Shown in pieces: positions 11,405 through 42,701 of a stretch of 64,000 nucleotides of DNA. Positions within the stretch are counted from its first letter, which is position 1. Every line of letters begins with the position of its first letter. The notes under the pieces are model-generated. The model was not told where the DNA came from. It worked only from the letters and a program-made list of their open reading frames with translations, and did no database searches. Source of the stretch: Hydrogenophaga sp. SL48 (GTDB lineage: Bacteria; Pseudomonadota; Gammaproteobacteria; Burkholderiales; Burkholderiaceae_C); the NCBI RefSeq assembly GCF_021729865.1, contig NZ_CP063400.1, positions 4,278,001 to 4,342,000 of the forward strand. Reading direction: 5' to 3'. A program made the translations under genes and the position numbers.

Positions 11405-11585
11405 CCGGCTGCCCGGCCCCGGACGGTGCCACCCGGCACCGGGCCTCCCCTTCGCCCGCTCGTTCGTCGCGGCACCGCCTTGGCCGCCTGAATCCATCCG
11501 CCAGCCCGCTGCGTATCCAGTGCACCGGGCCCCCGACCAATAACCCCATTGATCGCATGGACGAAAAAGATATCCATCAGGACAA

Positions 11586-11607: not shown

Positions 11608-11660
11608 AAAACCAGACGGTTCAAATGCAATCCCACCCACAACCCACATCCGGAGAATCC

Positions 11661-11891: not shown

Positions 11892-11909
11892 AGATGTATT
11901 CAGAACCCG
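11882..11909 (+). promoter_or_regulatory. 11-bp perfect hairpin with the downstream ATG in its loop
   Basis: CGGGTTCTGAA (11882-11892) and TTCAGAACCCG (11899-11909) are exact complements around the six-base loop GATGTA, which contains the ATG (11894-11896) of the oxidoreductase gene. In RNA this would hide or present the start codon. As DNA it is also a 28-base dyad that a repressor could bind. The stop codon of the small upstream ORF lies within the 5' arm. Confidence 0.65.
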
Positions 11910-27044: not shown

Positions 27045-29297
27045 ATGCAGGCCTTGAGCAGACACGGCCCGCGCATCGCCGTCACCCTGCTCCCGCTGAT
27101 CCTGGCGATCCTGCACGCCGTGGGCGTGGTGCCCATGGGGGTGTTGCAGCGTCTCGACGACATCATCTACGACACCCGCCTGCGGGCCACCATGCCGGGC
27201 ACGCTCGACGAGCGCATCGTGATCGTGGACATCGACGAGAAGAGCCTGGCCGAGGTCGGTCGCTGGCCATGGTCGCGCCACCACATGGCGAACTTGGTGG
27301 ACACGCTCTTTGAGCAGCAACACATTGCGATGCTCGGGTTCGACACCGTGTTCGCCGAGGCCGACGACAGCTCCGGTTTGCGGCAACTGCAGCAACTGGC
27401 GCGCGGAGAGCTGGCCGATCAACCAGGGTTTGTCGAGCAGGTGAACGCGCTGCAACCCCGGCTGGACTTCGACAGCCGCTTCGCCCAATCCCTGCGGGGT
27501 CGGCCGGTGGTGCTGGGCTATTACTTCACCAGCGACCGTGATGGCCGCAGCCATGGCGTGCTGCCTGCGCCGGTCATGAACACGGAGGCCCTGGGCGGCC
27601 GCTCCATCCGCAGCACACGATGGAACGGCCATGGTGCCAACATCGCTCCGCTGGCCCAGGCCGCGCCGCTGGCGGGCTTCTTCAACGCCATCCCCAGCAG
27701 CAGCGACGGCGTGGTCCGGACCCTGCCCATGCTGGCCGAGTACCAGGGTGCGTATTACGAGTCCCTGGCGCTCGCCATGTTTCGCCTGCTGACCGGGCGC
27801 CCGCAGGTCGAGCCCGGGTTTCCGGCTCAGGGGTGGCTGGGCCACGACTACGGGGCGCTTGAAAGCATCCGGCTGAGCCAGGGTGGCACATCGATGCAGA
27901 TCCCGGTCGACGACCGCCTGACCGTGCTCGTGCCCTTTCGCGGCCCCGGGGGGCCTCGCGGGGGCTCGTTCCGCTACGTGTCCGCGAGCGACCTGCTGAC
28001 GGGGCGCGTGGCGGCGGGTGAGCTCAAGGACAAGATCGTGCTCGTGGGCACCACGGCGCCCGGCCTGCAGGACCTGCGCGTCACGCCGCTGAGCGAAACC
28101 TACCCCGGCGTCGAAACCCACGCCAACCTCATCGCCGGCCTGCTCGACGGCCGCCTGCCAAACCGGCCGGACTACGCTGTCGGCTACGAACTCGTGGTGC
28201 TGGTGCTGGCCGGGCTGGTGCTCGCGCTGGTGCTGCCCCTGCTCAGCGCCACGCGCGCTGTGGTTCTGAGCGTGCTGGTGGTGACGGTGGTGCTCGGGCT
28301 CAACACCTGGCTCTACCTCGCCCACGCGCTGGTGCTGCCGGTGGCCAGCACGCTGGTCATGGCTGGGCTCGCGTTCGCGCTCAACATGAGCTACGGCTAC
28401 CTGGTCGAGAGCCGAGCCAAGCGCGAGCTGGCCCAGCTGTTTGGCACCTACGTGCCGCCCGAGCTGGTCGACGAAATGGTCAAGGACCCCGACAGCTACA
28501 GCATGGACGCGTCCACGCGCGAACTCACCGTGATGTTCTGCGACATGCGCGGCTTCACGCAAATCTCCGAAACCATGCCGCCCACCGAGCTGCAGGGCCT
28601 GCTCAACACCGTGTTCAGCCGCCTGACCCGCATCATCCGCGGCCACCGCGGCACCATCGACAAATACATGGGCGACTGCGTCATGGCCTTCTGGGGCGCG
28701 CCGGTCGCCACCCCCGACCACGCCAGCCTCGCGGTCCAGACCGCGCTCGACATGTCCGACGCCATCCGGACGTTCAACCAGGAGCGCCACCAGGCGGGCC
28801 TGCCCGCCATCGGGGTGGGAGTGGGCCTGAACACTGGCGAAATGTGCGTGGGCGACATGGGCTCCGATGTGCGCCGCAGCTACACCGTGGTGGGTGACGC
28901 GGTGAACCTGGGCGCCCGCCTGGAAGGCCTCTCGAAGCTCTACGGGGTGGACATCGTGGCCAGCGAATTCACCCGCCGGCAGGCGCCGGGGTTTGTCTGG
29001 CAGGAGCTGGACCGGGTCCGCGTGAAAGGCAAGGCCCAGGCCGTGACGATCCACACGCCGCTGTGCACCCGCGAGCAGACCTCCGCCGCGCTGGAGGACG
29101 AGCTGCGCGAGTGGCAAAAAGCCCTGCTGGCCTGGCGCGCACAAGACTGGGATGCCTGCGACGTGCATCTGCTCAACGTGCAGCGCCAGAATGCCAAAAA
29201 AGTCCTTTACCGCCTTTATGCCGAGCGGGTAGTCTCGATGCGACTTTCGCCGCCGCCTGCGGGCTGGGACGGCTCCACCACCTTTGACACCAAATAG
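27045..29297 (+). CDS. CHASE2-domain adenylate/guanylate cyclase (class III)
   Basis: This 750-residue protein has an N-terminal helix, a CHASE2 periplasmic sensor (about 30-370), three membrane helices (about 378-450) and a class III cyclase domain (about 490-680). Metal-binding Asp residues are in FCDMRGFT and MGDCVMAFWG. The purine-specifying Lys (IDKYMGD) and Asp (VVGDAVNLGARLEG) fit ATP as substrate. The sensor has the same layout as that of the kinase upstream (DERIVIVDIDEKSLAEVGRWPW versus the kinase's DRIAIIAIDDQSIANIGRWPW), so the two may sense the same cue. A phosphodiesterase gene follows after 34 bases. Confidence 0.93.
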   Translation: MQALSRHGPRIAVTLLPLILAILHAVGVVPMGVLQRLDDIIYDTRLRATMPGTLDERIVIVDIDEKSLAEVGRWPWSRHHMANLVDTLFEQQHIAMLGFDTVFAEADDSSGLRQLQQLARGELADQPGFVEQVNALQPRLDFDSRFAQSLRGRPVVLGYYFTSDRDGRSHGVLPAPVMNTEALGGRSIRSTRWNGHGANIAPLAQAAPLAGFFNAIPSSSDGVVRTLPMLAEYQGAYYESLALAMFRLLTGRPQVEPGFPAQGWLGHDYGALESIRLSQGGTSMQIPVDDRLTVLVPFRGPGGPRGGSFRYVSASDLLTGRVAAGELKDKIVLVGTTAPGLQDLRVTPLSETYPGVETHANLIAGLLDGRLPNRPDYAVGYELVVLVLAGLVLALVLPLLSATRAVVLSVLVVTVVLGLNTWLYLAHALVLPVASTLVMAGLAFALNMSYGYLVESRAKRELAQLFGTYVPPELVDEMVKDPDSYSMDASTRELTVMFCDMRGFTQISETMPPTELQGLLNTVFSRLTRIIRGHRGTIDKYMGDCVMAFWGAPVATPDHASLAVQTALDMSDAIRTFNQERHQAGLPAIGVGVGLNTGEMCVGDMGSDVRRSYTVVGDAVNLGARLEGLSKLYGVDIVASEFTRRQAPGFVWQELDRVRVKGKAQAVTIHTPLCTREQTSAALEDELREWQKALLAWRAQDWDACDVHLLNVQRQNAKKVLYRLYAERVVSMRLSPPPAGWDGSTTFDTK

Positions 29298-29331
29298 GCC
29301 GCTCCCGAGGCCCCATTCACCTGGAAAACCA

Positions 29332-30135
29332 ATGAGGGTACGTGTACTGGGGTGTTCCGGCGCCATTGCCCAAGGGTGCCGAACCACCTCGTTCTTGCTG
29401 GACGACGACGTGCTGATCGACGCCGGCACCGGCGTGGGCGACCTCAGCCTGAACGAAATGGCTGCGGTCAACCACGTCCTGCTCACCCACTCCCACCTCG
29501 ACCACGTGGCCAGCCTGCCCTTGATGCTCGATGCCGTGGCCGCGTTGCGGCTGGCCGCCGGCGCCCCGCCGCTGCAGGTGCACGCGCTGCCGGGCACCAT
29601 CGACGCGCTCAAGGTGCACATCTTCAACAACCTGATCTGGCCGGACTTCTCGGCCATCCCCAGCGCCGACACGCCGCTGATGCGCTTCAACCCCATCGCC
29701 GTGGGTGAAACGCTGCAGGTGGGCGGCAAACGCATCGAAGCGCTGCCCGCCGTGCACACCGTGCCCGCCGTCGGCTACGCGGTGGACAGCGCCAGCGGTC
29801 ACTGGGTCTTCAGCGGCGACACCGAGCGCAACCCCGCCTTCTGGCAGCGCGTCAACCAGCTCAAGGTGGCCCTGCTCATCATCGAAACCGCCTTCAGCGA
29901 CCGCGAAAAAGAGCTGGCCAAGCGCAGCCTGCACCTCGCGCCCAGCACCCTCGCCGAAGAGCTCGACCAGATCCAGTGCGACCGCCGCTTCCCGATCTAC
30001 ATCACCCACACCAAGCCGGCCGAGACCGGGCTGATCATGGAAGAAATCCGCCGCTTCGACCAGACGCCGAACCGCGAAGCCGACGTGCGCCACGACATCC
30101 GCTGGCTCAGCGCCGGGCAGACCTTCGAGCTGTGA
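29332..30135 (+). CDS. metallo-beta-lactamase-fold 3',5'-cyclic-nucleotide phosphodiesterase (class II-like)
   Basis: This 267-residue MBL hydrolase has LLTHSHLDHVASLPL (His/Asp metal ligands, about residue 54), a second ligand block at HTVPAVGYAV and SGDTERN. Its overall pattern (LGCSGAIAQGCRTTSFLLDDDVLIDAGTG is read in two parts: LGCSGAIAQGCRTTS and DVLIDAGTG) is that of class II cyclic-nucleotide phosphodiesterases. Standing directly after an adenylate cyclase, it would degrade the same messenger. ATG 29332 was chosen because the family starts with this beta strand; the upstream open frame has no similarity. Confidence 0.85.
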   Translation: MRVRVLGCSGAIAQGCRTTSFLLDDDVLIDAGTGVGDLSLNEMAAVNHVLLTHSHLDHVASLPLMLDAVAALRLAAGAPPLQVHALPGTIDALKVHIFNNLIWPDFSAIPSADTPLMRFNPIAVGETLQVGGKRIEALPAVHTVPAVGYAVDSASGHWVFSGDTERNPAFWQRVNQLKVALLIIETAFSDREKELAKRSLHLAPSTLAEELDQIQCDRRFPIYITHTKPAETGLIMEEIRRFDQTPNREADVRHDIRWLSAGQTFEL

Positions 30136-30323: not shown

Positions 30324-30875
30324 ATGAAGCGTTCCATGCAAAAAGGTTTCACCCTGATCGAATTGATGATCGTGGTGGCCATCATCGGTATCCTGGCTGC
30401 TGTCGCTCTGCCGGCTTATCAGGACTACACGATTCGCGCTCGCATCACCGAAGGTCTGTCGGTGGCTGCCGATGCGAAGACGCAGATTGGCACGAGCGCC
30501 ACGACGGCGCCAGAGCTGCTCGCCTTGGCAACATCCTGGAATGCCCAGGGAGGCAGCACAGGTGCGACCAGCAAGTACGTGTCCAGCGTGTTTATCAACG
30601 AAACCACCGGTGAGATTGAGGTGACTTACAACAGGGCCAACGTGGGCGCCATTCCTGATGCCGCGACGCTGTATCTGAAGCCGTTCATGTCGGTTGGTAC
30701 CAGCAACTTCGTGGCGCTCGATACTGCATTGGCTGCCGGGTATTCCGGTGAAACCGGCGCCATCGATTGGGCTTGCGGTTCTGAAGTCCATAGTGTTGCT
30801 ACTTCGCGCGGCATGGGCACCGGCGTCTCTACTGGATCTCTGCCGGCCAAGTTCGCGCCCAGCGAGTGCCGATAA
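30324..30875 (+). CDS. pilA: type IV pilin, major pilin-like (first copy)
   Basis: This 183-residue prepilin has a short leader MKRSMQKG cleaved before Phe. The class IVa hydrophobic helix follows ([20 protein letters not shown]) with the conserved Glu at mature position 5. A C-terminal disulfide region (DWACGS to SECR) forms the D-loop. An AGGAG ribosome site precedes the ATG. It has its own sigma-54 promoter and a strong terminator, so it can be made in large amounts alone. The adjacent second pilin and TfpZ gene suggest variant pili with dedicated modification. Confidence 0.93.
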
Positions 30876-30918: not shown

Positions 30919-30944
30919 GGACGCTATCCAGCGTCCTTTTTTTT
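30919..30944 (+). terminator. rho-independent terminator after pilin gene 1
   Basis: AGGACGCT-ATCC-AGCGTCCT followed by seven T. It lies 43 bases after the stop and separates the two pilin transcription units. Confidence 0.93.
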
Positions 30945-31148: not shown

Positions 31149-31697
31149 ATGAAATCTGAAAGCATTCGAGGCTTCACCCTCATTGAACTGATGATCGTAG
31201 TGGCGATCATCGGCATCTTGGCGGCGGTGGCACTGCCGGCCTATCAGGACTACACCATCCGCGCGCGCATTACTGAGGGGCTGTCGTTGGCCACTGATGC
31301 CAAACAGATTGTTTCTACTGCAGCTCTGACGCAGGCCGAGTTGGCCGCACTTGCGACTGCATTCAATGAGGGGCACGGCAGCACAGGGTTGGTGAGCAAA
31401 TATGTCCAGAGGGTTCAGATAGATACGACAACAGGTGAAATTGCAGTCACCTTCAATCAGGAAAATATCGGTGCCATTCCTGATGCTGCAGTTTTGGCGT
31501 TAAAGCCATTCCTGTCAGTAGGTAGCAACTTCGTTCCATTGGACACGGCACTTTCTGCCGCTTACTCGGGAGAGACCGGAGCTCTGGACTGGGCCTGTGC
31601 ATCCTCTGCCAACACGTTGGCATCGGCCCGAGGCATGGCGATCACGGCGCCATCGAATCCGCTGCCCGCTCGATTCGCACCCAGCGAGTGCCGCTGA
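31149..31697 (+). CDS. type IV pilin (second copy)
   Basis: This 182-residue prepilin is closely similar to the first: leader MKSESIRG, the same N-terminal helix, the same C-terminal loop (DWACAS to SECR). The middle region differs more, as expected for surface-exposed parts. Its base composition is poorer in GC than that of the first copy. ATG 31149 was chosen because it gives the eight-residue leader. There is no hairpin terminator before the TfpZ gene 79 bases on, so co-transcription with the modification operon is likely. Confidence 0.92.
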
Positions 31698-31776: not shown

Positions 31777-32568
31777 GTGCACGCGACAACCCCCGGATTT
31801 TTCAAGACCTTTGGCACGCGAGCGCGTGCAGCAGGGCTCCATCTGCTGGCGTCCGGCTCCATTGCAGCGGTGGTGGCCGTACTGGTTTTTGGGTACTGGT
31901 ATCCAGGCGACCTTCGGCTTGTGGCAGGCGGAACAGCCCTGTTCACACTTGTCATGGTGGTTGACGTTGTCATGGGCCCGATGCTGACCTTCGTGGTCTT
32001 TGATCGTTCCAAGGGGGTGTCTCATCTTCGGCGAGATATTGCCGTCATTGCTCTCTTGCAGATGCTGGCGCTGTCATACGGGCTGCACACCATGTACATG
32101 GGGCGCCCAGTCGGGCTGGCATTTGAATTTGATCGTTTTCGTGTGGTGTCCATGGCGGAAGTCGTCGTCGCGGAACTGGATCAGGCACCACCCATGTTTC
32201 GTCGCTTGCCATTGGACGGACCGATGCTGTTCGCCGTGCGGAAGTCCAGCACCACGGAAGAGCGTGCGGATGCCCTGAACGCCTCGATTTTCCAGGGGGT
32301 CGACAACGGACAGCGCCCCAAGTTCTGGATCCCGTATGACGAACAGGCGCGAGCCCAAGCGGCAGCGGCGGGGCGCCCATTGGACGCTCTTATTTCAAAG
32401 TACCCTTCCTCCAAGGCCGCAGTCGACCGGATACGGACTGCTATGGCGACGCAGGATGATCGCGACGGACTGCGATTTTTACCTGTTCGTGCCAAGCACG
32501 ATGCGGTCGTTGTATTGACACACAATGGCGGGATTGTCGAGTTTCTTCTTTACGACGGCTTTTTCTGA
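31777..32568 (+). CDS. TfpX/TfpZ family type IV pilin accessory protein
   Basis: This 263-residue inner-membrane protein starts at GTG, with hydrophobic segments near residues 20-45, 48-72 and 85-100 and a soluble C-terminal domain. The block VVDVVMGPMLTFVVFD is typical of TfpX/TfpZ proteins, encoded beside pilin genes in Pseudomonas, Acinetobacter and Moraxella, where they help surface display of the matching pilin. Its stop overlaps the next gene by one base (TGATG). It is the first gene of a nine-gene run with overlaps or very short gaps. Confidence 0.8.
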   Translation: MHATTPGFFKTFGTRARAAGLHLLASGSIAAVVAVLVFGYWYPGDLRLVAGGTALFTLVMVVDVVMGPMLTFVVFDRSKGVSHLRRDIAVIALLQMLALSYGLHTMYMGRPVGLAFEFDRFRVVSMAEVVVAELDQAPPMFRRLPLDGPMLFAVRKSSTTEERADALNASIFQGVDNGQRPKFWIPYDEQARAQAAAAGRPLDALISKYPSSKAAVDRIRTAMATQDDRDGLRFLPVRAKHDAVVVLTHNGGIVEFLLYDGFF

Positions 32569-33986
32569 TGCGACAGACGCTATTGGCTGATCAAACTTAT
32601 CAATCTCACGCGGGTTGGATAAAAGTTGGGCTGGGGCTGATCACCTTCATACTGTTGAACGCAATTTTTCAGTATGTTGCCATCCGTTTTGGATACAAGC
32701 GGTATTTTATAAGTGCCGAAATTCTGGTTGCAGTGATCGCGTTCAGCTTGAGGTACCGATTGATTGGTCTGATAGCTTTTCTTGCCGCTGTCGGATTGGA
32801 AATAGTGCTGGGTCTCACTGGCGTTTTTCATTTCATGGATGTGCGGGAGGCGTTGGACATGGCAGAGTTCGCCTTTCTCGCCCGAACGGAATACCTGATC
32901 AGCTTCGTTGCCATGATTGCGTTGGCGATCGCTTGCTTCTGGACCACGGGCAGGTTTGTTGGCAAATTTCGACCCAGGCAAGTAGTATTGGTGCTGTCAT
33001 CTCTGGGAGTTGGGCTGACGTACTCCCAATGGTCTCTGTCCGAGGACGGTGGGAACTTCTTTACGCCTGTTCATGCCAGCCGAAGCTCGCTGGCGTTTGG
33101 TAGTTCGGCCTTCATCTTGAAGGATTCTCTTGAATTGAACAGGGTGAAGCAAGCTGCCAGTGGTGATCCAGATATTGAGTACCACCGTGTTCGGCATCCG
33201 TCGGCGGCAAATATCGCCATTCAAGAAACTCCATCATCCCGTAGAATACTTTTTGTGATCAGTGAGGCGTGGGGGTTACCAAAAAATTCCAAAGTACTGG
33301 AAGAGAATATTCAAGCGCTTCGCAACAGCCCGAATGTCAAAGATCTTGAGGTGCAAGGTGTTCACGCTCGCGGCGCGACCGCCGCAGGCGAGTTACGTGA
33401 GCTTTGCGGCCTGATACCCAGCCGAATGAACCTAGGGAAAATGACGCCCGAATTGATTGGCGAGTGTCTGCCGCTAAAGCTGAACAAACAAGGCTACAAG
33501 ACGGTGGCTGTCCACGGGGCAGAAAGCTCCATGTACCGAAGAAGCCGGTGGTACCCGTTGCTTGGGTTTGAACAGATGATTTTTAAAGGCGACATGCCTC
33601 CGGTCGACACAGATTGTTATTCCTTCCCCGGGTACTGTGACAAAAACATCTTCCCGGTGGTGAGTGATCAACTGAAACAAAACAAGGTGTTTGTTTATTG
33701 GTTGACACTCAACAGCCATATTCCCTACGACCGGCGAGACATTGTGAATTACCGTGAGGATCTTTGCAGGGAGTTCTCAACTGCAAATAATGCTGAGTTG
33801 CTCTGCAACTATCAGAACTTGCATGTCCAGTTTTTTGAGGGGCTGGCCAAGCTCATTGAGGACGAAGCCTTGCGGGGTGTGACGGTGGTGGTGGTCGGGG
33901 ACCACCCGCCCATCTTCTACGACGACGAGGCACGTGGGGGCTTTGAGGCTGAGCAAGTGCCCATGCTGCACTTCACCGTGAAATGA
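32568..33986 (+). CDS. membrane sulfatase-type phosphotransferase, tandem copy 1
   Basis: This 472-residue protein has about five N-terminal membrane helices and a periplasmic alkaline-phosphatase/sulfatase-fold domain (from about 200), as in EptA, LtaS and OpgB. Metal and catalytic positions are visible: Glu in ISEAWG, a Thr nucleophile candidate in GATAAGELRELCG, His in NSHIPYDRRD, and Asp-His in VVGDHPPIF. Such enzymes move phosphoethanolamine or phosphoglycerol from phospholipids. Coupled to TfpZ (one-base overlap) and to a paralogue (ATGA), it is a good candidate for a pilin or surface-glycan phospho-modifier. Low GC and many A/T-ending codons set it apart from the flanking chromosome. 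Confidence 0.8.
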   Translation: MRQTLLADQTYQSHAGWIKVGLGLITFILLNAIFQYVAIRFGYKRYFISAEILVAVIAFSLRYRLIGLIAFLAAVGLEIVLGLTGVFHFMDVREALDMAEFAFLARTEYLISFVAMIALAIACFWTTGRFVGKFRPRQVVLVLSSLGVGLTYSQWSLSEDGGNFFTPVHASRSSLAFGSSAFILKDSLELNRVKQAASGDPDIEYHRVRHPSAANIAIQETPSSRRILFVISEAWGLPKNSKVLEENIQALRNSPNVKDLEVQGVHARGATAAGELRELCGLIPSRMNLGKMTPELIGECLPLKLNKQGYKTVAVHGAESSMYRRSRWYPLLGFEQMIFKGDMPPVDTDCYSFPGYCDKNIFPVVSDQLKQNKVFVYWLTLNSHIPYDRRDIVNYREDLCREFSTANNAELLCNYQNLHVQFFEGLAKLIEDEALRGVTVVVVGDHPPIFYDDEARGGFEAEQVPMLHFTVK

Positions 33987-35392
33987 TCGAACCGACTCCC
34001 AAGGTTGAGGGTTTAACCGGCGACCGTCATGGCCATTGGGTGTTTGCGCTGATTGGTTTCGTCGTCTTCAGTCTGGTGTTTCAGTGGGCTTCGCTCCACT
34101 TCGGCTTCAAGCGCTATCTCCTCAGTGCGGAGATGCTGATGGCCATGCTGCTTTTTGTGATGGGGCTGCGGTGGTTGGGAGTCGCATTGTTCTTGGTCAC
34201 GGCTGGCCTTGAGATGGCACTGGGAGCCATCACGGTGTTTCGCCTGATCGACATCGGTCAGGTCCTGGACATTGCGGAATACCTATTCGAAGCAAGGGTG
34301 TCCTATCTCATGATGCTGGTTCTGCTGCTGGTATTTGCAGCGACCAGCTTCTGGATAGCAGCCAACCGCCTGAAGGGCGCGCGCTGGGCGTGGCTTCCGC
34401 TTATTGCGTCTGTTCTGATGCTGGCTCAGTGGCAACTGTCGTTTGCGAAGGCAACCTTCTTTTCCCCTCCGTTTGCCGAGAGAAATGAGTTGTTGTTTGG
34501 CAGTTCCGCCCTTTTTGTACACGCGGTGCTTGAGGAGAATCGAAGACGGCACGTTCACATTGGAGCCAACTCGGAGGACGCCGAATACATGCCGGTCGCG
34601 CATCCTTCGGCGGCCAGTTTGACGTTGGGCGAGCAGCCGACCTCGCCGCGCATCCTGTTCATCATTGCTGAGTCTTGGGGGGTGTCCAAGGAGCAGGCGG
34701 TGATCAAGCAGCAGATATCTGCTCTGAGCGCCAGTGTGCATGTGCAGAACTTGAGACTGGGCAGCATCGACGCTGTTGGCACGACTGCGGCGGGTGAGTT
34801 GCGTGAACTTTGCGGACGGATTCCGACGCGCCTGAATTTTCGTCAGATGACGGCGGAAGCCATTGGGGAATGCATGCCCGCCAAGCTCGCAAAACAAGGC
34901 TACAAGACGGTTGCGCTGCATGGAGCGTTTGGCGCGATGTACCGTCGAAAGCTTTGGTACCCGGTCATCGGCTTTAGCGACCTGGTGTTCAGGGAAACCC
35001 TGCCGTTCACAGGCACGCAGTGTCATTCCTTCCCTGGCTACTGCGACCGCGATCTGCTCGGTGTCGTGCGACAGAAGCTCAACCAGGACAAGGTGCTCCT
35101 CTACTGGTTGACCTTGAATTCGCACATACCCTACGATCGACGCGATGCTGTGAACTACCGAGAGGACTTGTGCCGTGCGGTGTTCGGGGCGACTTACAGT
35201 GAACAACTGTGCGGCTATCAAAACCTGCATGTGCAGTTTTTTGAGCACTTGGCCAAGCTCGCCGAAGATGAAACCATGAGGGGCGTGGAAGTGGTCGTCG
35301 TGGGCGACCATGCGCCCATCTTCAACGATTCAGCAGCTCGCGCGCGGTTCGAGCAGGAACAGGTGCCCACGCTTCATTTCGTGGTGCAATGA
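33983..35392 (+). CDS. membrane sulfatase-type phosphotransferase, tandem copy 2
   Basis: This 469-residue paralogue of the previous gene lines up over its full length. Shared blocks include TAAGELRELCG, KQGYKTVA-HGA, YWLTLNSHIPYDRRD and QNLHVQFFE. The nucleophile Thr (GTTAAGEL) and the GDHAPIF metal pair are intact, so both copies should be active. The membrane helices differ more than the catalytic domain, which suggests a different donor lipid or partner. It starts within the stop of copy 1 (ATGA). Confidence 0.8.
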   Translation: MIEPTPKVEGLTGDRHGHWVFALIGFVVFSLVFQWASLHFGFKRYLLSAEMLMAMLLFVMGLRWLGVALFLVTAGLEMALGAITVFRLIDIGQVLDIAEYLFEARVSYLMMLVLLLVFAATSFWIAANRLKGARWAWLPLIASVLMLAQWQLSFAKATFFSPPFAERNELLFGSSALFVHAVLEENRRRHVHIGANSEDAEYMPVAHPSAASLTLGEQPTSPRILFIIAESWGVSKEQAVIKQQISALSASVHVQNLRLGSIDAVGTTAAGELRELCGRIPTRLNFRQMTAEAIGECMPAKLAKQGYKTVALHGAFGAMYRRKLWYPVIGFSDLVFRETLPFTGTQCHSFPGYCDRDLLGVVRQKLNQDKVLLYWLTLNSHIPYDRRDAVNYREDLCRAVFGATYSEQLCGYQNLHVQFFEHLAKLAEDETMRGVEVVVVGDHAPIFNDSAARARFEQEQVPTLHFVVQ

Positions 35393-35429
35393 TGGCCCCG
35401 TTCCATTCAAGATTCCTGTTGTGAAACGC

Positions 35430-36203
35430 ATGGCGCAGCAAGCACCCAAGAATGTCGTTCTCCTGGCCGCCGGTCGAGGCTCGCGCATGTCGCCGTTGAC
35501 CGACCATTGCCACAAGTCCTTGCTTCCGGTGGCTGGCAAACCTGCGCTGCAAATCATTCTCGACGAAGTGCTGAAGGGTGGCGCGGAAGATGTCGTCGTC
35601 GTGGTCGGGCACAGGCGTGCAGACATCGAGGCCTTCGTGCAAGGCAGGTATGGTGACGCAGTCCGTTGTGTGGCCAACGAGCGGTATGACGAAGACGTCA
35701 ACATCCTGTCAGTCCAGACCGGGGTGGACGCTTTGCGCCAGCCCGAGCAAGGCTACCTGATCATCGAAACCGATCTGGTCATGGAGCCCCGGGGCTGGCG
35801 TTCCGTGCTGTGCATTGAAGACCTTGGCACGTCGTTCTGGGTGACGCGTGGCCGCTATTCACAGGCACTGACCGGTGGTGCCCTGGATGCCGATGCGCAG
35901 GGTGGGGTTGTGCAGTTGGTCTACCGGCCGCACTACGATCCGGCCTGCGAGGGTTGGAGCAAGCTGCTGGGCATTCTTTATGTCGGTAGCGACGCCGTCG
36001 GGCAGGACATCTTGCTCAGGCAGCAAGCCATCGGCAAGAGCATCGCCCAGTACTACATGATGCCCTGGGTGGAGCATCTGGCCGAACTGCCGTGCTGCGC
36101 GCGCGACCTTGAAGATGTTTACGCGGTTTCATACAACGATGAGGCTGCCTATCGCCGCGCGGACGAGGCGTACGCGCACATACTGAGTCATGAAGGACGA
36201 TAA
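35430..36203 (+). CDS. nucleotidyltransferase (LicC-like head-group cytidylyltransferase), first
   Basis: This 257-residue protein has a nucleotidyltransferase fold: VVLLAAGRGSRMSPLTDHCH, then KSLLPVAGKP (Lys), ANERYDEDVNILSV, and the metal Asp in LIIETDLVM. It resembles LicC-type phosphocholine cytidylyltransferases and sugar-phosphate nucleotidyltransferases rather than tRNA enzymes. In this operon it probably activates a small phosphorylated head group with CTP; substrate unknown. A GTG at 35421 is an alternative start. It stands 37 bases after the second transferase gene, the largest gap in the operon. Confidence 0.75.
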   Translation: MAQQAPKNVVLLAAGRGSRMSPLTDHCHKSLLPVAGKPALQIILDEVLKGGAEDVVVVVGHRRADIEAFVQGRYGDAVRCVANERYDEDVNILSVQTGVDALRQPEQGYLIIETDLVMEPRGWRSVLCIEDLGTSFWVTRGRYSQALTGGALDADAQGGVVQLVYRPHYDPACEGWSKLLGILYVGSDAVGQDILLRQQAIGKSIAQYYMMPWVEHLAELPCCARDLEDVYAVSYNDEAAYRRADEAYAHILSHEGR

Positions 36204-36590
36204 ATGGGCATCGAGATGGTGGATGTGACTTTCCTGAAGCACATCGAGGGCTTTAGCAAGAAGCGGGTGCAATGGCTCAAGGACAAGATCGTTCGCGAAG
36301 GGGTGTGGAACAAGCCAGTGGCTCTGGATGTTTCGCATGGGCTTGTGCTGGATGGGCAGCACCGCATGGAGGTGGCCAAGGCCCTGGGGCTCAAGCGCAT
36401 TCCAGCGATCAAGTACGACTACTCCGCCGTGAAGGTCTGGAGCCTCAGGCCGGGCAAGCATGAGTTCACCTGGGAGACCGTGGTGGCGCGGGCATTGGCT
36501 GGCGACATCTATCCGTACAAGACAGTGAAACACGAGTTCCCTGTACCTCTGCCGGCCTGTCATTTCAGTATCGACGAGTTGATGGCATGA
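36204..36590 (+). CDS. ParB-fold protein resembling SerK/SbnI free-serine kinases
   Basis: This 128-residue single-domain protein of the ParB/sulfiredoxin fold has Glu32 and DGQHRMEVAKALGLKRIPAI (Asp50, His53, Arg54). The late motif YPYKTVKHEF resembles the one near the C terminus of SerK and SbnI, which phosphorylate free serine to O-phosphoserine. No DNA-binding helix-turn-helix follows, so it is not a partition ParB. Wedged between two nucleotidyltransferase genes (ATGA overlap with the next), it would supply a phosphorylated small molecule for activation. The kinase role is inference from motif and context. Confidence 0.6.
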   Translation: MGIEMVDVTFLKHIEGFSKKRVQWLKDKIVREGVWNKPVALDVSHGLVLDGQHRMEVAKALGLKRIPAIKYDYSAVKVWSLRPGKHEFTWETVVARALAGDIYPYKTVKHEFPVPLPACHFSIDELMA

Positions 36591-37261
36591 GCAAGGTAGG
36601 CAAAGCGATCATTCTGGCCGCAGGTCGAGGCAATCAAGCCGACGGGATTGCCAAGGCGCTCATCCGCCATCCGGTGACGGGAAAGTCCATTCTGAGTCAT
36701 GCGATAGAGGCGTTTGCAGGCAAGAAGATCGTCGTGGTGGCCGGCTTCCGTGCCATCCAGATGATGGAAACCCATCCGGAGGTGGACTATGTGCTCAACC
36801 ACGACTGGGCGATCACCAACAACGCCATGAGCCTGGCCTTGGCGTTGGCGTTGGACGACGAACCCAGTTACGTGGTGTCCGGCGACATTTTCTTTGAACG
36901 TGGGCTGATCGAGCGCCTGGACGCTGAGCCGGCCGACCTGGTTCTGACGGAGAACCGGGAGAACCGCGCACTGAGTGCCGTTCATTGCAAACTGCGAGCG
37001 GACGGGACGGTAGCGGCCACGTATCAGGGACCCGTTCAGGACATGGCCCACCCTGAGGCGATAGGGCTTTTCAAGGTCTCCAGCCCGAAAATCCTCAATG
37101 CTTGGAAACGACTTTGCACCAAGCACGGCAATCTGTTTGTCGGGCAGGTCCTGCCGTGCGGCGAAGATCCGGTTCACGCGGTGGATCGCGCTCAGGCCAT
37201 GTTTGACGAGATCAACACACCGGTCGACTACTTGCAACTCATAGAGCGCACACGCAAATGA
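36587..37261 (+). CDS. nucleotidyltransferase, second
   Basis: This 224-residue protein has AIILAAGRGNQADGIAKALI at the N terminus, the LNHDWAITNNAMSLALAL block and the metal Asp in VVSGDIFFERG. The TNN-x-SL motif is shared with phosphocholine, phosphonate and related head-group cytidylyltransferases. It is distinct from the first enzyme and shorter. It overlaps both neighbours (ATGA), so it is made together with the SerK-like protein; phosphoserine or a derivative is a reasonable guess for the substrate. Confidence 0.72.
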   Translation: MSKVGKAIILAAGRGNQADGIAKALIRHPVTGKSILSHAIEAFAGKKIVVVAGFRAIQMMETHPEVDYVLNHDWAITNNAMSLALALALDDEPSYVVSGDIFFERGLIERLDAEPADLVLTENRENRALSAVHCKLRADGTVAATYQGPVQDMAHPEAIGLFKVSSPKILNAWKRLCTKHGNLFVGQVLPCGEDPVHAVDRAQAMFDEINTPVDYLQLIERTRK

Positions 37262-38520
37262 TTCGCTCCCTGACCCTTGGGTTGCCGATGGGTATGCAGG
37301 CACCGAACGAGGTGGGTGCGCAGGCAAAGGCGTTTCTCGATCTGGCCCGTCAACGTCTGAACGCGGCCGATCTGGCACCGCGAACCACCCGTTTTACGCT
37401 GCCTCCTATGGGGCAGGAGGGTGAAACCGCGGGCGTATTGCTTTCAACCCTGCGCTGGGTTGACGACCTGGCTCAGGAAACCGGGGTGCGCTGGGTCTGT
37501 CTGCCGCTGGATTGGGTGGCGGAGGGTCCGCGTCGGGAGCGCAAGTTGTCCGCCATGGACGCGTTGACCCGGTTTCCGAGGGCCTTCGTTAATCTCATGA
37601 TCGCGCATGAGGGGCGCATTGCCGTCGAAGCCATCAACGATGCGGCGTCGTTCGTGCTCAACCTCTCCAAAAAGTCCAACAACGGCTTTGACAACTTCCG
37701 GGTAGGCGCGTCTGCCAACTGTCCGGCCAATGCCCCTTTCTTTCCCTTCTCACGCCATGAAGGAGAAAACATGGCGTTCAGCTTCGCCCTGGAAACGATT
37801 GGGCCAGCGCTGGAAGTCATGCGTTTGCCCGAGGTGCGGGCGCACCGCGACATTGCGCTGATCCGCGACAGAATGGTCCAGGCCTTGGTGCCTATGCTGC
37901 GGCGCATCGACGCCATTGGTCACAAGCTGGCCGAGCAGGGGCACGTGATCTACAGCGGGCTGGACGCATCGCTGGCCCCGTTTCCGGATGGCCAGATGTC
38001 GGTTGGGCTGCTGATCGAGCAGATATTGGGCGCCCCCGTTGGCAGTCAGGGCAGCGTATTCGTGACCACGGTGCTGACCGATGTACTGCGCACGGCGATT
38101 CGCGAAAGCGGGGCGAAGGCCGTCGGATTCAACGGCGTCATGTTCTCCGTCCTGGAGGACGAGTACCTGGCCTCGGCGAGCAGCCGGCGGCAGGTGAGCA
38201 TTGATGGGCTGACAGCCCTGGCCGCCGTGTGCGGTTGCGGCATCGACATGGTTCCCGTACCGGGCACCAGCTTTCAGGAAGAGATCGCAGCCGTCATGTT
38301 CGATATTGCCGCCCTGTCGTCGACCCTGGGGAAACCGCTGGGCGTGCGGCTGTTGCCCATTCCCAATCGAAGCGTCAATGAGTTCACCCAGTTCAACCTG
38401 GACTTCCTGTGTGATGGCCGGGTGTTGGCGCTGACCTCGAACGACCATAAATTTACTTCCGCCAGTGCCCTGCTGGACATTCAGAGCCCCTTGCGTTCAT
38501 TGAAAGGAAAGCCGTCGTGA
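37258..38520 (+). CDS. DUF711 (UPF0210) family protein
   Basis: This 420-residue protein carries the DUF711 signature NFRVGASANCPANAPFFPFS followed by RHEG, plus GFNGVMFSVLED and CGCGIDMVPVPG near the C-terminal third. The biochemical function of this widespread family is unknown to me. Its presence in a head-group operon between a nucleotidyltransferase and a methyltransferase gives it a testable context. It overlaps both neighbours (ATGA and GTGA). Confidence 0.8.
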   Translation: MIRSLTLGLPMGMQAPNEVGAQAKAFLDLARQRLNAADLAPRTTRFTLPPMGQEGETAGVLLSTLRWVDDLAQETGVRWVCLPLDWVAEGPRRERKLSAMDALTRFPRAFVNLMIAHEGRIAVEAINDAASFVLNLSKKSNNGFDNFRVGASANCPANAPFFPFSRHEGENMAFSFALETIGPALEVMRLPEVRAHRDIALIRDRMVQALVPMLRRIDAIGHKLAEQGHVIYSGLDASLAPFPDGQMSVGLLIEQILGAPVGSQGSVFVTTVLTDVLRTAIRESGAKAVGFNGVMFSVLEDEYLASASSRRQVSIDGLTALAAVCGCGIDMVPVPGTSFQEEIAAVMFDIAALSSTLGKPLGVRLLPIPNRSVNEFTQFNLDFLCDGRVLALTSNDHKFTSASALLDIQSPLRSLKGKPS

Positions 38521-39230
38521 TCGATCAGGACAAGGTGAAATCATTCTGGGATGCTCGGGCGAAGACCTACGAGAACCTTGCCTTCGAGAGCATCGCCAAT
38601 CTGGAGCAGGATTCCGAAAACCTCCAGCTCAAGATTCAACTGGAAACCGAGAAGGTGGGCCAATTCCTGGGCAACGTGGCGAGAATGTCTGTTCTCGACC
38701 TGGGTGCGGGCGTCGGCCAGTGGGCATTCCGGTTTACCGAAGCGGGCGCGCGCAGTGTCACGGCTGTGGAGTATTCGGAGCCCTTGGCCGAAATCGGCCG
38801 AGCCGAGGCTGAGCGACGCAGCTTTGGCAACGTCAGTTTCGTGGTGTCCTCTGCGGAAAACTATTCTTCGCCGGTGGCTTACGACCTGGTCTTCATCTCC
38901 GGTCTCTTCGTTTACATGAACGATGATCAGGCAGAGCGTCTGGTGAGCAATCTCAAGGGGTTCTGCCACGACCAGACCCTGATCCTCCTGCGCGACGGTA
39001 CGGCCTTGGCCTCGCGACATGAAATCAATGATCGTATGTCGGACCACCTGCAGTCTCGTTATTCGGCGACCTATCGCACGCGCCAGGAGTACATGGACTT
39101 GTTTGGCCAACATGGCTTCGTTCTTCAAAAGGACGAGAACATGTTTGACGAAGGATGCCCGTTGAACAAATATCCAGAAACGCGGCTGCGGATTTACCGC
39201 TTTGCGCGTGGCGTGGCATGCCAACGCTAG
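38517..39230 (+). CDS. SAM-dependent methyltransferase
   Basis: This 237-residue class I methyltransferase starts at GTG in a GTGA overlap. The SAM motif is VLDLGAGVGQWAFRFTEAGA (about 60-79), followed by an acidic residue at the end of the second strand (VTAVEYSEPL) and DLVFISGLFVY as motif III region. The substrate is unknown; the operon suggests a small amino-acid-like head group. The last 13 bases overlap the next gene. Confidence 0.8.
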   Translation: MIDQDKVKSFWDARAKTYENLAFESIANLEQDSENLQLKIQLETEKVGQFLGNVARMSVLDLGAGVGQWAFRFTEAGARSVTAVEYSEPLAEIGRAEAERRSFGNVSFVVSSAENYSSPVAYDLVFISGLFVYMNDDQAERLVSNLKGFCHDQTLILLRDGTALASRHEINDRMSDHLQSRYSATYRTRQEYMDLFGQHGFVLQKDENMFDEGCPLNKYPETRLRIYRFARGVACQR

Positions 39231-39961
39231 CCCCGGCCGGGGGTGAGGTTTCATGGCCCCTGGATGAGGGGGTGCTCGGTGTGGTCGGTGTGGCGCCTTG
39301 GGCCACACTGGAGTTCTGCCGCTGTTTCTATGGTCTGGTGAGCGCCCAGAAGGATTGGCACTTCCCCCGTGTGCTGCTGGATATCAACACCAAGCTTCCG
39401 AGCAGGGGCAGGCACCTGCAGCTGGGTGAGCGCGACCCGTCTCCCTACATTGCCGAGACCATTGCCGAGTTGGCGCAGGCCGGTGCAACGGTGGCGGTTG
39501 TCGCCTGCAACACGGCTCACATCCTTTTTGACCGGTGGTCCTACGGAGCACCTATTCCCGTGCTCAACATTGTTCGGGAGTCGGTTAGCAGTGCCCAGCG
39601 TTCGGGTGCGCGACGGCTGCTGGTGCTGGCGTCGGCTTCATTGGCTCAACACAATCTCTATGCCCAACAGGCCGAGTGGGCCGGTCTGGCCTGTTTGCCG
39701 CTGGCACCGGACCTTCAGTGCATCGTCAATGGGTTGATCGAGACCATCAAGACAAGCGGCAGCTTCTCGGCAAGCGATGGCGGGGCAATCGCAGAGCTTG
39801 TCGAATACGCCCACAAGGGTCAGGCCGATACGGTCCTGCTGGGTTGCACCGAGCTGTCGACGTTGAGGCAACATGTTGAAAGCGCAGGGCTTCAGGTCGT
39901 CGACTCGAACGAAGCGCTGGCCCGAGCCGCTTACATGTCCATCTGCCCAACAGCATCCTGA
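39218..39961 (+). CDS. aspartate/glutamate racemase family protein
   Basis: This 247-residue protein has the two catalytic Cys motifs of the cofactor-independent racemase fold, VACNTAHILFD and LLGCTELSTL, plus PVLNIVRESV. It could racemise or isomerise an amino-acid-like intermediate of the operon (serine-derived by the SerK model), or act as a decarboxylase of the same fold. ATG 39218 lies inside the methyltransferase gene. It ends 9 bases before the stop of the convergent transferase gene, where the two halves of the accessory region meet. Confidence 0.78.
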   Translation: MPTLAPAGGEVSWPLDEGVLGVVGVAPWATLEFCRCFYGLVSAQKDWHFPRVLLDINTKLPSRGRHLQLGERDPSPYIAETIAELAQAGATVAVVACNTAHILFDRWSYGAPIPVLNIVRESVSSAQRSGARRLLVLASASLAQHNLYAQQAEWAGLACLPLAPDLQCIVNGLIETIKTSGSFSASDGGAIAELVEYAHKGQADTVLLGCTELSTLRQHVESAGLQVVDSNEALARAAYMSICPTAS

Positions 39962-39970: not shown

Positions 39971-42037
39971 CTACTTGCCCTCCACGCTCCAACCCTTTGC
40001 GTCAAAAGGGTCCTTCCCCCTGAGGATGAACTGCCTGTTGATCACAAAGGTGTTGGGCTTCTGTGCGCTGAACTGCCAAGGCACCATGGACGCCACAAAA
40101 GGGTCGTTTCTTCCCTGGGCCTCTATCGGTCGCATCCCCAGGTAGGGATTGACGCAGCCGCCGATGTCCTGGCAAAGCAGGCGGGGTACTTCCGCGTTGG
40201 GCATGTATTCTTCAGAGACAGTGACTGGACCGGTCGCACCGGCCGGCTTGAACAGAACCAAGGGGCGCAGACGGACAAAGTTGTTTTCCGTGGTTCCGCC
40301 GCCCTTCGCCCTGCGCGATTCGTCCTTCACATCCCCGACAATGCCGTGGTCTGACGCTAGGACAATCGTTGTGTTGTCGTAGACGCCCCGGGCCTTGAGC
40401 ACATCCATGTACTTGGCTACGGACAGCAGAACACAGCGCGCCGTATTGGCGTGCTGCCAAGAAAACTGGCTCTTGTGGCCCAGGCGTGCAAGTTCATCGC
40501 TGTCGGCCGTCACGCGCTCGGGCTGAGGCAGGCAATCCTTGCCCATGAAGTAGGGCTCGTGGGGCAAGATATTGGCGATGTAGTTGAAGCTGGGACCTCC
40601 ATCGTCGACCGCCGTCATCTGGTCCAGTGCTTCCAGCTCGGCCCATTCCCGAAAAGTGGTGCCGGCTGAGTGGTCCAGAAACGGCTTCCACGGTCCTTTG
40701 ACCTGGATGGCCTCCTTCATGGAGTAGGGCGCAATGCGCATGGTGCCCAGAATGTTCAGGAGATCCGCGTAGTTGGCCTCCGCCAGGTCATTGACGGGAA
40801 AACCCATGGCTTTGGCCTTTTGCAGGGAAATGCTCGAGGGCGTATGGGTGCAGGAGACCCCCTTTACATCCAGGAAGCTGCAGTCTCCCATCATGGTGAA
40901 GCCCAGTCCACGTGGATTGACGACGTTGACCCGGTATCCCTTGCCGGCGAAGTTGTAGGGAAGAATCGAAAACGCCTCGACCGACAGGTCTTGCAGCAGT
41001 CTGTTTCGCCCGTTCATCTCGACGGGCAGGTAGTCGTAACCCCCCCACATGGGGTGAACGCCGGCGATCGAGTTTTCGCCGGCTGACACGGAGCCCGGGT
41101 ACCAGGTGAAACCGCTCAAGCGGGTTGCCAGGGCGGGGTCATCTTCCAGTATCGCCTCCACGTACGACCCCATGAAGCGGTCGAGAAAGATGAACAACGT
41201 GTTCGACTGTGATCGGGAGAATTTCAGCGGCCTCTCAACCATGGCCTTCGCACCGCCTGACCCGCCCGCTTCACCCACCTGATCCTTGCTGGCACTGACA
41301 GTCGCCGCGACGACGATGGACACGTTGGCAATGACCAAGGCCACCACGAGAGGAGCCGTACCGAAGTGACGCCAAACGTGGCGCAAGACCAGTCCGACCG
41401 TTACGGCGATGGCCGCATCTGCCAAAGCTCGCATACCCACGGTGGGCAGAGGGATCGGCATCTGCTCGAACGCCAAACCTGAAAGCATGGGATATCCGAA
41501 AGGCAGTACGAAGGCATACAGCCAGCAGAGAAAGAAGCCGCCAACGGACAACACGGTCATGGCCGACCGCATGCCAGGGGAATGGATCACGCCATACAGT
41601 ATGGCCGCCAGATAGACGACCACCATTGCATCACGTGCGTTCACTCTCAACAATCGGTCCAGGTGAATGCCGATTTCACCGGGCGAAGTAAGAAACGTGG
41701 TGATCGGAATGGCCACGAGTGCCAATGTCGATATGCCCAGCACCGACAAGAGATACATCGGCAGGCGATAGCGGCCCAGCACGCTGGCAAGCTGCACCAG
41801 TTGAGGTTCTGCGTGCAGCCGATATGCCACCACCGATGCCATCGCCGATGCGGCCACCGACCAGGGCGAACATTCCAGCCACAGGGCAACGCAAAGCAGC
41901 GCGTAAGCCAGGCTGAGCTTCAGCGCGAAAGCAGCCATTTCCCCGAACCGGGACACTGCAAAATCCGATGCCTTCAACGCCAACAAGGCAACCGGAACGG
42001 TCACCAGAAACACGACAAGGGTGAGTAGGGCATTCAT
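39971..42037 (-). CDS. large membrane sulfatase/LtaS-like phosphotransferase
   Basis: This 688-residue protein has about eight hydrophobic segments in the first 245 residues and an alkaline-phosphatase-superfamily domain after them. Visible features are FIFLDRFMGSYVE (metal Asp), GSVSAGENSIAG with a Ser nucleophile candidate, NILPHEPYFM and LASDHGIVG with the Asp-His metal pair. It is larger than the tandem pair on the other strand and only distantly similar. With a glycerophosphotransferase-like gene and a private YidC upstream, a role in making or attaching a phosphoglycerol-type surface polymer is likely but inferred. Confidence 0.77.
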   Translation of the reverse strand: MNALLTLVVFLVTVPVALLALKASDFAVSRFGEMAAFALKLSLAYALLCVALWLECSPWSVAASAMASVVAYRLHAEPQLVQLASVLGRYRLPMYLLSVLGISTLALVAIPITTFLTSPGEIGIHLDRLLRVNARDAMVVVYLAAILYGVIHSPGMRSAMTVLSVGGFFLCWLYAFVLPFGYPMLSGLAFEQMPIPLPTVGMRALADAAIAVTVGLVLRHVWRHFGTAPLVVALVIANVSIVVAATVSASKDQVGEAGGSGGAKAMVERPLKFSRSQSNTLFIFLDRFMGSYVEAILEDDPALATRLSGFTWYPGSVSAGENSIAGVHPMWGGYDYLPVEMNGRNRLLQDLSVEAFSILPYNFAGKGYRVNVVNPRGLGFTMMGDCSFLDVKGVSCTHTPSSISLQKAKAMGFPVNDLAEANYADLLNILGTMRIAPYSMKEAIQVKGPWKPFLDHSAGTTFREWAELEALDQMTAVDDGGPSFNYIANILPHEPYFMGKDCLPQPERVTADSDELARLGHKSQFSWQHANTARCVLLSVAKYMDVLKARGVYDNTTIVLASDHGIVGDVKDESRRAKGGGTTENNFVRLRPLVLFKPAGATGPVTVSEEYMPNAEVPRLLCQDIGGCVNPYLGMRPIEAQGRNDPFVASMVPWQFSAQKPNTFVINRQFILRGKDPFDAKGWSVEGK

Positions 42038-42053
42038 TCCTGTACGCCTCTGT

Positions 42054-42701
42054 TCAGGCGCCTCGCGCCAACATGTTGCGAAGCAGTGACCAGAAGTTGT
42101 TCATCGTCCAATACAGGACCAGACCTGCGGGACTGGCGTACAACAACACCAGAAAAACCAGCGCCAGCGCGATGGCTTGAAGTCGCTTGGCGGGGTCTTT
42201 CACATAGTAGAAAACCGAAATGGCATTGATCCCTGTCATGAGCAGCGGAAGCAGGTTGATTCCGACGAGCAGTCCATCGGGTTTGCCAAGATCGTCGATC
42301 TGGCCGAAAGACATTCCTGCGAGGAGACCCGGTTGCGAAAGGAAATGGTAAACGGTGAAAAAGACGAGCAATTGCAGAAACAGCTCGTTTGAAGACACCA
42401 GCGACTGGATCGGGTGATAGTGAAACTGCCTATGCACAGCGCGCACATAAAAATAGCGCTCGCGCCCTTTGAAGTGGGTCTTCATGCGGGTCACTTCCCG
42501 GTCCATGCGCTCACGCTGAGCCCGCCCGGCCCGTGCTCTCTTCTCCATTTCGCGGTAAAGCGGATGAAGCAGCAGATTGATCGTGATACTGAATGCCACG
42601 ATTTTTCCGCCCATGTCCAGCCATGAAGGGAAATCGAGCAGGGCCTGATAAATCACCATCAGAGGCTGCAGCAGGATGATGTCGAGAATGGCCATCATCA
42701 T
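42054..42701 (-). CDS. YidC/Oxa1-like membrane insertase paralogue
   Basis: This 215-residue protein has five hydrophobic segments and a positively charged loop (EMEKRARAGRAQRERMDREV) like that of the YidC/Oxa1 core. It lacks the large periplasmic domain of housekeeping YidC, so it resembles the short Oxa1/Gram-positive form. The start overlaps the stop of the glycerophosphotransferase-like gene. A dedicated insertase beside a many-helix transferase suggests it inserts or stabilises that enzyme. The housekeeping yidC would be elsewhere. Confidence 0.78.
   Translation of the reverse strand: MMMAILDIILLQPLMVIYQALLDFPSWLDMGGKIVAFSITINLLLHPLYREMEKRARAGRAQRERMDREVTRMKTHFKGRERYFYVRAVHRQFHYHPIQSLVSSNELFLQLLVFFTVYHFLSQPGLLAGMSFGQIDDLGKPDGLLVGINLLPLLMTGINAISVFYYVKDPAKRLQAIALALVFLVLLYASPAGLVLYWTMNNFWSLLRNMLARGA

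Follow-up and report, generated by a model that had tools for sequence, protein, structure and literature searches.

Results

Gene organization of the locus

The window analysed here, a stretch of 64,000 nucleotides from the single-contig, 5.43-Mb genome of Hydrogenophaga sp. SL48, carries two type IV pilin genes followed by nine closely spaced genes that join a pilin accessory module to a six-gene cassette. The two pilins (30324-30875 and 31149-31697, the latter with its likely start at ATG 31149) match PF00114 and N_methyl, and the first contains the motif GFTLIELM. They are followed, on the same forward strand, by a TfpX/TfpZ family pilin accessory protein (31777-32568), recognised by its position after pilA and by NF041437 (204.2 bits, cut-off 200), and by two membrane sulfatase-type phosphotransferases resembling LtaP/LtaS: Sulf1 (32568-33986; PF00884, 47.8 bits) and Sulf2 (33983-35392; PF00884, 28.4 bits), a tandem copy 51% identical to Sulf1. 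The cassette begins with NTPT1, a LicC-like cytidylyltransferase matching PF12804 (35430-36203; the open reading frame (ORF) is open from 35310). It continues with a compact SerK-like kinase of the ParB fold (36204-36590), NTPT2, a divergent MobA-like nucleotidyltransferase that also matches PF12804 (36587-37261), a DUF711/UPF0210 protein with a PFL-like fold (37258-38520; PF05167, 195 bits), an S-adenosylmethionine (SAM)-dependent methyltransferase (38517-39230; PF13649) and an Asp/Glu-type racemase nearest CuyB (39155-39961, starting at 39155 or 39218; PF01177).

A first-pass annotation of this DNA, made from the sequence alone, had described the nine genes with their overlaps and gaps of 0 and 37 bases, and they are present as it claimed. 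However, it closed the operon at 39961 and overlooked three genes on the opposite strand (39971-44017), which are convergent to the cassette both in the window and in another cassette locus, L003. These encode SulfDown, a polytopic sulfatase-type transferase (39971-42037; PF00884, 22.4 bits, below the cut-off of 25), a YidC/Oxa1-like membrane protein (42054-42701; PF02096, 66 bits) and Cps, a membrane-anchored transferase of the PF04464 (CDP-glycerol glycerophosphotransferase-like) kind, assigned through its homologues (42698-44017). The genes between 30324 and 44017 each have a third-position GC of 0.59-0.78, compared with 0.84-0.89 in five flanking genes; therefore, the foreign-looking stretch exceeds the nine-gene operon. 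The start of cps lies inside the end of moaC (ATGA overlap at 44014-44017), and the acquired trio is thus tightly joined to a resident gene.

The resident pilin locus and its accessory slot

Our comparison revealed that the nine genes are two modules: the pilin, TfpZ and Sulf1/Sulf2 genes of a resident pilin locus, and the six-gene cassette. Synteny with two genomes of the family, G525 and G416, extends over 19-35 kb and 44-51 kb of the window; there, kinase and/or PP2C genes, pilA, TfpZ and one Sulf gene are followed by moaC. Nothing in the 20-kb stretches from these genomes corresponds to the window genes at 35.4-44.0 kb. The pilin side of moaC was surveyed in 62 regions: those of G525 and G416, and 60 drawn from the 81 genomes in which moaC was matched. 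A pilin-like gene lies 3′ of moaC in 39 of the 62, approximately 1-11.7 kb away, and 86 co-directional ORFs of at least 170 amino acids (aa) in these 39 intervals gave Wzy_C (40), PglL_A (33), TfpZ (10) and Sulfatase (3). This content indicates that the pilin-moaC interval is a pilin glycosylation/accessory slot. None of the 62 regions matched NTPT1, SerK, DUF711, Cps or SulfDown at E ≤ 1e-6. The window carries unusual cargo in this slot, between Sulf2 and moaC. The G416 slot (L052, 10202-15376) contains a CptA/EptA-like phosphoethanolamine transferase and, by eye, two membrane-protein-like ORFs and a transposase-like ORF.

Sulf1 and Sulf2 combine a sulfatase fold with hydrophobic segments, as expected of a membrane enzyme of the PptA/PptB kind. 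Their sole NCBIfam transferase match is a weak one to LtaS, and the closest solved structure to Sulf1 is lipoteichoic acid primase 4uop (E = 1e-8). The stretches G-x-T-A-x-x-E and GDH are common to Sulf1, Sulf2 and the G525 and G416 homologues. The TfpY-like proteins (TfpX, TfpY and TfpZ) are presented as assembly helpers, not pilin modifiers, in the relevant passages of PMC11841053.

Distribution of the cassette

The cassette recurs away from the pilin module. Twenty-eight named loci (L002-L029) were located through conserved SerK peptides, so that distant members are under-sampled; together with the window and a further genome of the family, G522, they make 30 loci in 29 cassette genomes. 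Genes in the fetched loci were called with a simple ORF script and no gene finder. NTPT1 and DUF711 were each counted in 28 of the 30 loci, NTPT2 in 21, the methyltransferase in 17 and the racemase in 16. The core of the cassette is NTPT1-SerK-DUF711, with three exceptions: L005, at a contig end, where DUF711 was not seen; L010, with the kinase alone, the rest of its cassette being L008 of the same genome; and L027. In L027 (8307-11576, Bacillota), an AA_kinase-GNAT protein, a SerK-like ORF with an extra N-terminal part and DUF711 were observed, and NTPT1 was not found. In 11 of 28 loci, a single reading frame encodes both NTPT1 and SerK, and NTPT2 is additionally fused in L020 and in a 607-aa ORF of L019 that spans NTPT1, SerK and NTPT2. 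Among the best 120 homologues of each family, 32 of the 56 SerK contigs of at least 5 kb matched DUF711 contigs in exact size (null expectation 0.2).

The hosts of the 28 loci are Proteobacteria, an acidobacterial Thermoanaerobaculia bacterium, Chitinivibrionales, Anaerolineales, Bacteroidales, Coriobacteriaceae, Clostridia and archaea. Among close relatives, the cassette is rare. Matches were found in 5 of 250 genomes of the family at E ≤ 1e-10, with the full cassette in the window genome and G522 and the other three matches at 2.6e-14 to 3.4e-22; in 7 of 399 genomes of the order at E ≤ 1e-3 (1e-68 in the window genome, 1.7e-21 at best elsewhere); and in 1 of 350 genomes of the class at E ≤ 1e-25, namely the window genome. 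This patchiness, the GC content and the phylum range point to horizontal acquisition. The plasmid search for DUF711 gave 28 records, and the 15 listed were canonical “PFL family” or UPF0210 proteins of about 22% identity. One distant phage match to the kinase was observed, in Vibrio phage Va2 (MW073017.1, 3437-3811, 29.6% identity).

The first-pass annotation had treated the nine genes as one system and had named unlinked occurrence in relatives as the result that would speak against it. Such occurrence was found: G525 and G416 carry pilA-tfpZ-sulf without the cassette, and TfpZ, Sulf1 and Sulf2 have no match at E ≤ 1e-4 in any of the 28 other cassette loci. The single-system view is therefore not supported in its original form, with the qualification that the search at this threshold is blind to distant sulfatases, such as a PF00884 gene adjoining the cassette in L018 and the sulfatase pair of Xanthomonas sp. 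XNM01 (L010; E = 0.001-0.002 against Sulf1).

Catalytic residues and predicted chemistry

The kinase profile matched the free serine kinase 5x0b (E = 1e-9). Residue E15 aligned with Glu30 of SerK, a position occupied by Q or A in the 5x0j and 5x0e chains; the DGxHR motif is common to both proteins, as is KTxxH beyond a skipped middle segment. All three features are invariant in 23 sequences. The protein has 128 aa and scored 35.4 bits against the curated NCBIfam free serine kinase model (cut-off 380). The identification of the kinase as a partition ParB was rejected, since the catalytic Glu is conserved and the protein occurs fused to a nucleotidyltransferase. SbnA uses O-phosphoserine as its substrate. 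Remote SerK-like proteins were observed in two regions (L053, 8731-14008; L054, 3244-8554), adjoining SbnA/cysteine-synthase-like or SbnB-like genes and decarboxylase genes; the SbnA- and SbnB-like neighbours fall below curated family cut-offs, the regions are probably siderophore clusters, and these neighbours are in keeping with phosphoserine supply.

The best solved match of NTPT1 is the CTP:phosphocholine cytidylyltransferase 1jyk (E = 4.6e-9), and its R59 and K69 are invariant in 28 sequences. In NTPT2, K23 and D100 are invariant in 21 sequences and the invariant arginine of NTPT1 is not conserved. C325 and C327 of DUF711 (CGCG in the window) are invariant in 28 sequences, and C325 aligned with a cysteine of the solved UPF0210 protein 2ha9. 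Both catalytic-type cysteines of the racemase, C118 and C231, aligned to 1jfl and are invariant in 16 of 16 sequences. Arylmalonate decarboxylase has one cysteine, and an arylmalonate-decarboxylase-like assignment was rejected because both are invariant here. The racemase scored 139.7 bits against the CuyB cysteate racemase model NF052483, under its equivalog cut-off of 190; as cysteate resembles phosphoserine, this likeness offers a hint, and only a hint, to the substrate.

The kinase-cytidylyltransferase core of our interpretation is well supported. The cassette probably yields an amino acid, most likely serine, in phosphorylated and nucleotide-activated form. The proposal of the first-pass annotation that a phosphorylated, nucleotide-activated and probably methylated small molecule is made here is borne out to this extent.

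Transferases near the cassettes and the convergent trio

PF04464 and LicD transferases use donors activated with cytidine diphosphate (CDP). Of 33 PF04464 matches in the 29 cassette genomes, 14 are no more than 10 kb from the kinase gene (12 genomes; 0.23 expected). The same holds for 4 of 12 LicD matches (four genomes, L024, L025, L026 and L028; 0.09 expected). This clustering, together with the donors that these enzymes use, suggests that the product is probably a CDP-amino acid.

The window Cps itself gave a weak match to Epimerase_2 (E = 0.084) and none to PF04464, while its homologues in L003, L010 and L121 score above the PF04464 cut-off and some of the 120 homologues listed bear PF04464 or its name. 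The search for SulfDown covered 18 of the 29 cassette genomes and five genomes without a full cassette; at E ≤ 1e-20 it was found in three of the former (window, L003 and XNM01) and none of the latter. Within the family, 2 of 250 genomes have a match at E ≤ 1e-40, the window genome and a remote one in G557. SulfDown otherwise gave only weak LtaS matches. In G557 (L121, G557:C78:200000-219999, 8215-13210), an 881-aa YidC-like/sulfatase fusion lies between a LicC-like NTP transferase and a PF04464 Cps; no SerK-like gene was recognised in the 20 kb fetched around it.

Cassettes beside pilus and flagellar genes

In Xanthomonas sp. XNM01, pilA, SulfA, SulfB, Cps, YidC, SulfDown and a SerK-like gene lie in a row on one strand, followed by a regulator-like gene (assigned by eye), a histidine kinase gene and PilB. 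The pilus link is therefore not a one-off. SulfA and SulfB are 46% identical to each other, and SulfA is 23% identical to Sulf1 over 124 residues; the two pairs are hardly related, so the same arrangement of pilin, tandem sulfatase pair, trio and kinase is built there from other parts. The SerK-like gene beside this trio (10001-10384) is the second of the genome, whose full cassette lies elsewhere, in L008.

Filament genes were counted as pilin, flagellin or FlgL-like genes recognised within the stretch analysed, and 5 of the 30 cassette loci have one close by. In L004, a pilin lies 8.5 kb upstream of the cassette. In L009 (Pseudomonas mangrovi; L119), flgK and a FlgL-like gene immediately precede the cassette, and genes resembling FlaG and FliD (by eye) lie farther along; in L014 (Methylotenera; L120), the cassette is less than 10 kb from a flagellin gene. 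A pilin-like ORF about 8 kb away in L027 is outside this count.

Discussion

Our results suggest, with a probability of roughly one half, that an acquired CDP-amino acid module acts together with the convergent trio to decorate a structure on the cell surface, the type IV pilin being the likeliest. We infer the substrate, step order, lipid carrier, DUF711 reaction and final target of the following scheme. The SerK-like kinase would phosphorylate a free hydroxy-amino acid, most likely serine, and NTPT1 would link its phosphate to CMP to form a CDP-amino acid. The amino-acid part may be reshaped, for example by N-methylation or inversion to the D form, by DUF711, present at almost every locus, and by NTPT2, the methyltransferase and the racemase, which are often present. 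The membrane-anchored Cps would spend the CDP donor at the inner membrane face, probably loading a lipid or glycolipid, which the YidC-like protein and SulfDown may carry to the outer face. There, a periplasmic sulfatase-type enzyme, SulfDown and perhaps also Sulf1/Sulf2, would transfer the phospho-amino acid to its acceptor at the surface, for which the pilin, or a group that it carries, is the likeliest candidate. A bolder version, which we consider doubtful, is that Cps makes a lipid-linked phospho-amino acid donor, the YidC-like protein flips it and the LtaP/LtaS-like sulfatase pair builds up on the pilus a short poly(phospho-amino acid) resembling teichoic acid, with DUF711 as a new non-radical PFL-fold enzyme acting on the CDP-amino acid.

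The pilus, or a group on the pilin, is moderately supported as the target. The link to pili drawn by the first-pass annotation is real: it recurs in the XNM01 locus, and the window cassette occupies a pilin-accessory slot. Several observations weigh against the proposed scheme. No pilin, flagellin or FlgL-like gene was recognised in 24 of the 30 loci, and the pilus is therefore not a general target. Sulf1/Sulf2 homologues accompany pilA-tfpZ in G525 and G416 without a cassette. At E ≤ 0.001, neither PF04464 nor LicD was matched in the window genome, the Cps profile found no glycerophosphotransferase among solved structures, and 2 of the 33 PF04464 matches are below the Pfam cut-off, one of them near a cassette (G989) and the other 12.6 kb off. 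SulfDown is absent from 15 of the 18 cassette genomes searched, including G522. Homologues of Cps are numerous (756 at E ≤ 1e-3), and their contigs of at least 5 kb share an exact size with only 3 SerK and 5 DUF711 contigs (null 0.3-0.4). The trio thus goes with a subset of the cassettes only and probably also serves other donors.

The strongest alternative, which we judge unlikely on balance, is that cassette and trio decorate a surface glycan, namely lipopolysaccharide, capsule or a teichoic-acid-like polymer, and that their position in the pilin slot carries no meaning. Glycans are the usual targets of PF04464 and LicD enzymes, genes for sugar biosynthesis (DegT, glycosyltransferases, epimerases) are found around several cassettes, and the 24 loci without a recognised filament gene fit this explanation. 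Passages on phosphocholine (ChoP) decoration likewise pair CDP donors with carbohydrates and lipid donors with proteins (PMC10434233). In contrast, the row of pilA, tandem sulfatase pair, trio and kinase in XNM01 favours the pilin, as does the window slot, where many members of the family have genes for pilin modification or accessory functions.

Sulf1 and Sulf2 might instead spend the nucleotide-activated product directly on the pilin, without the trio, as the first-pass annotation had proposed. They are immediately adjacent to the cassette, and pilin phospho-form transferases of the same superfamily, PptA and PptB, are described in the relevant parts of PMC3656113 and PMC10434233. However, enzymes of this fold are considered to draw on lipid donors on the outer side of the membrane (PMC10434233), Sulf homologues accompany pilA-tfpZ where there is no cassette, and elsewhere the cassette is paired with CDP-using enzymes. 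Direct use by Sulf1/Sulf2 is thus improbable. A variant phosphocholine or phosphoethanolamine (lic-like) pathway, with the SerK-like, DUF711 and racemase proteins otherwise employed, would explain why NTPT1 is nearest LicC and why LicD lies less than 10 kb from the kinase in L024, L025, L026 and L028. Choline kinase and transporter families were not seen among the nine genes (Pfam), however, and the fusion of NTPT1 to a kinase with SerK catalytic residues, together with a two-cysteine amino-acid racemase, points to an amino acid, which makes a lic-like pathway very improbable. Two neighbouring operons without any functional link are the least probable explanation: each module also occurs alone, but the junctions are close throughout, the third-position GC drop is common to both and XNM01 provides a parallel.

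Our preferred interpretation, CDP-amino acid decoration of a surface target, has its nearest known relatives in flagellin modification. The relevant parts of PMC10714395 and PMC11833859 describe N-acetylglucosamine-phospho-N-methylthreonine on Clostridioides difficile flagellin and deoxyhexose-phospho-N,N-dimethylthreonine in Pseudomonas aeruginosa PAO1, with CDP-threonine proposed. The type A (C. difficile cd0240-cd0244) and b-type (P. aeruginosa pa1088-pa1091) pathways place a phospho-amino acid on a surface filament, as proposed here, and both they and the window include a cytidylyltransferase, LicC-like NTPT1 in our case, and a SAM methyltransferase. The window Cps is a candidate counterpart of their TagF-like CDP-amino acid transferase; it lacks a PF04464 match of its own, although its homologues pass that cut-off, and its profile gave nothing meaningful among solved structures. 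In contrast, a ThrH-like HAD enzyme is proposed there for phosphothreonine, whereas the window has a SerK-like kinase and no Pfam match to the HAD family among the nine genes or the trio. The flagellin pathway also has a core glycosyltransferase, a family with no member among the window parts listed, and sits near fliC, not in a pilin slot; NTPT2, DUF711, the racemase and the YidC-like/sulfatase trio are extras of the window. Because a SerK-like kinase replaces the HAD enzyme and NTPT2, DUF711 and the racemase are added, the window system works like the flagellin pathway but is not a member of it. CD0244 is likened to UDP-GlcNAc 2-epimerase in part of PMC10714395, and the window Cps is likewise a weak Epimerase_2. 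The passages on the flagellin glycan call CDP-L-serine known, citing a paper with enzyme promiscuity in its title (their reference 32).

Further comparisons concern single components. Neisseria PptA/PptB and Sulf1/Sulf2 are alkaline-phosphatase-superfamily membrane enzymes, and PptA/PptB put phosphocholine, phosphoethanolamine or phosphoglycerol on pilin. Among the solved structures covered, the nearest to Sulf1 are LtaP/LtaS. The passages on PptA in PMC10434233 describe no dedicated head-group pathway, whereas the window has a candidate one. The tandem pair is a further likeness to LtaP/LtaS, but the window locus is a Gram-negative-type pilin locus. The window kinase shares the catalytic Glu, DGxHR and KTxxH with SerK, but the free serine kinases SerK and SbnI have 242-256 aa; the middle segment is missing from the window kinase, whose family is often nucleotidyltransferase-fused. 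The main text of a ParB-fold survey contains the word “nucleotidyltransferase” 0 times and reports that an archaeal SerK-like protein binds CTP (PMC12704722). TagF-type (PF04464) and LicD enzymes, CDP-alcohol phosphotransferases, stand beside many cassettes, and the window Cps is a divergent, N-terminally membrane-anchored branch.

The first-pass annotation regarded the system as a candidate for an undescribed one. In the open-licence literature we found no description of the nine-gene set, nor any paper that combines at least five of pilin, sulfatase, YidC, CDP-glycerol, nucleotidyltransferase and Xanthomonas; DUF711 is mentioned there only in ribonucleotide reductase work, and UPF0210, sought only jointly with other terms, did not occur in the 12 papers listed of 102. 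CDP-serine is named in two papers, one of them on steroids. Of 15 papers that mention CDP-threonine or related compounds, three deal, by title, with the C. difficile and P. aeruginosa flagellin work, and with such close analogues the system is less isolated than had been thought.

CDP-threonine has so far been a hypothesis for the flagella of two pathogens; the cassette suggests a broader use of activated phospho-amino acids, across bacteria and archaea and with a different, SerK-like kinase making them. It offers a candidate pathway role for DUF711/UPF0210, a family of unknown function, and for compact ParB-fold proteins. A phospho-amino acid would be a second chemistry for the pilin-accessory slot, beside PglL/TfpO/TfpW glycans and PptA/PptB groups.

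Scans of the window for regulatory signals were uninformative (5 promoter-like sites compared with 3.4 in shuffles; 11 terminator-like sites compared with 9.9). A terminator-like hairpin with a T run, spotted by eye and not listed by the terminator scan, follows pilin 1 (30919-30944). Directly upstream of the pilins (27045-30135), a CHASE2 adenylate/guanylate cyclase and a class II cAMP-phosphodiesterase-like metallohydrolase are encoded, and cyclase and/or phosphodiesterase-like matches were also observed upstream of pilA in a number of relatives.

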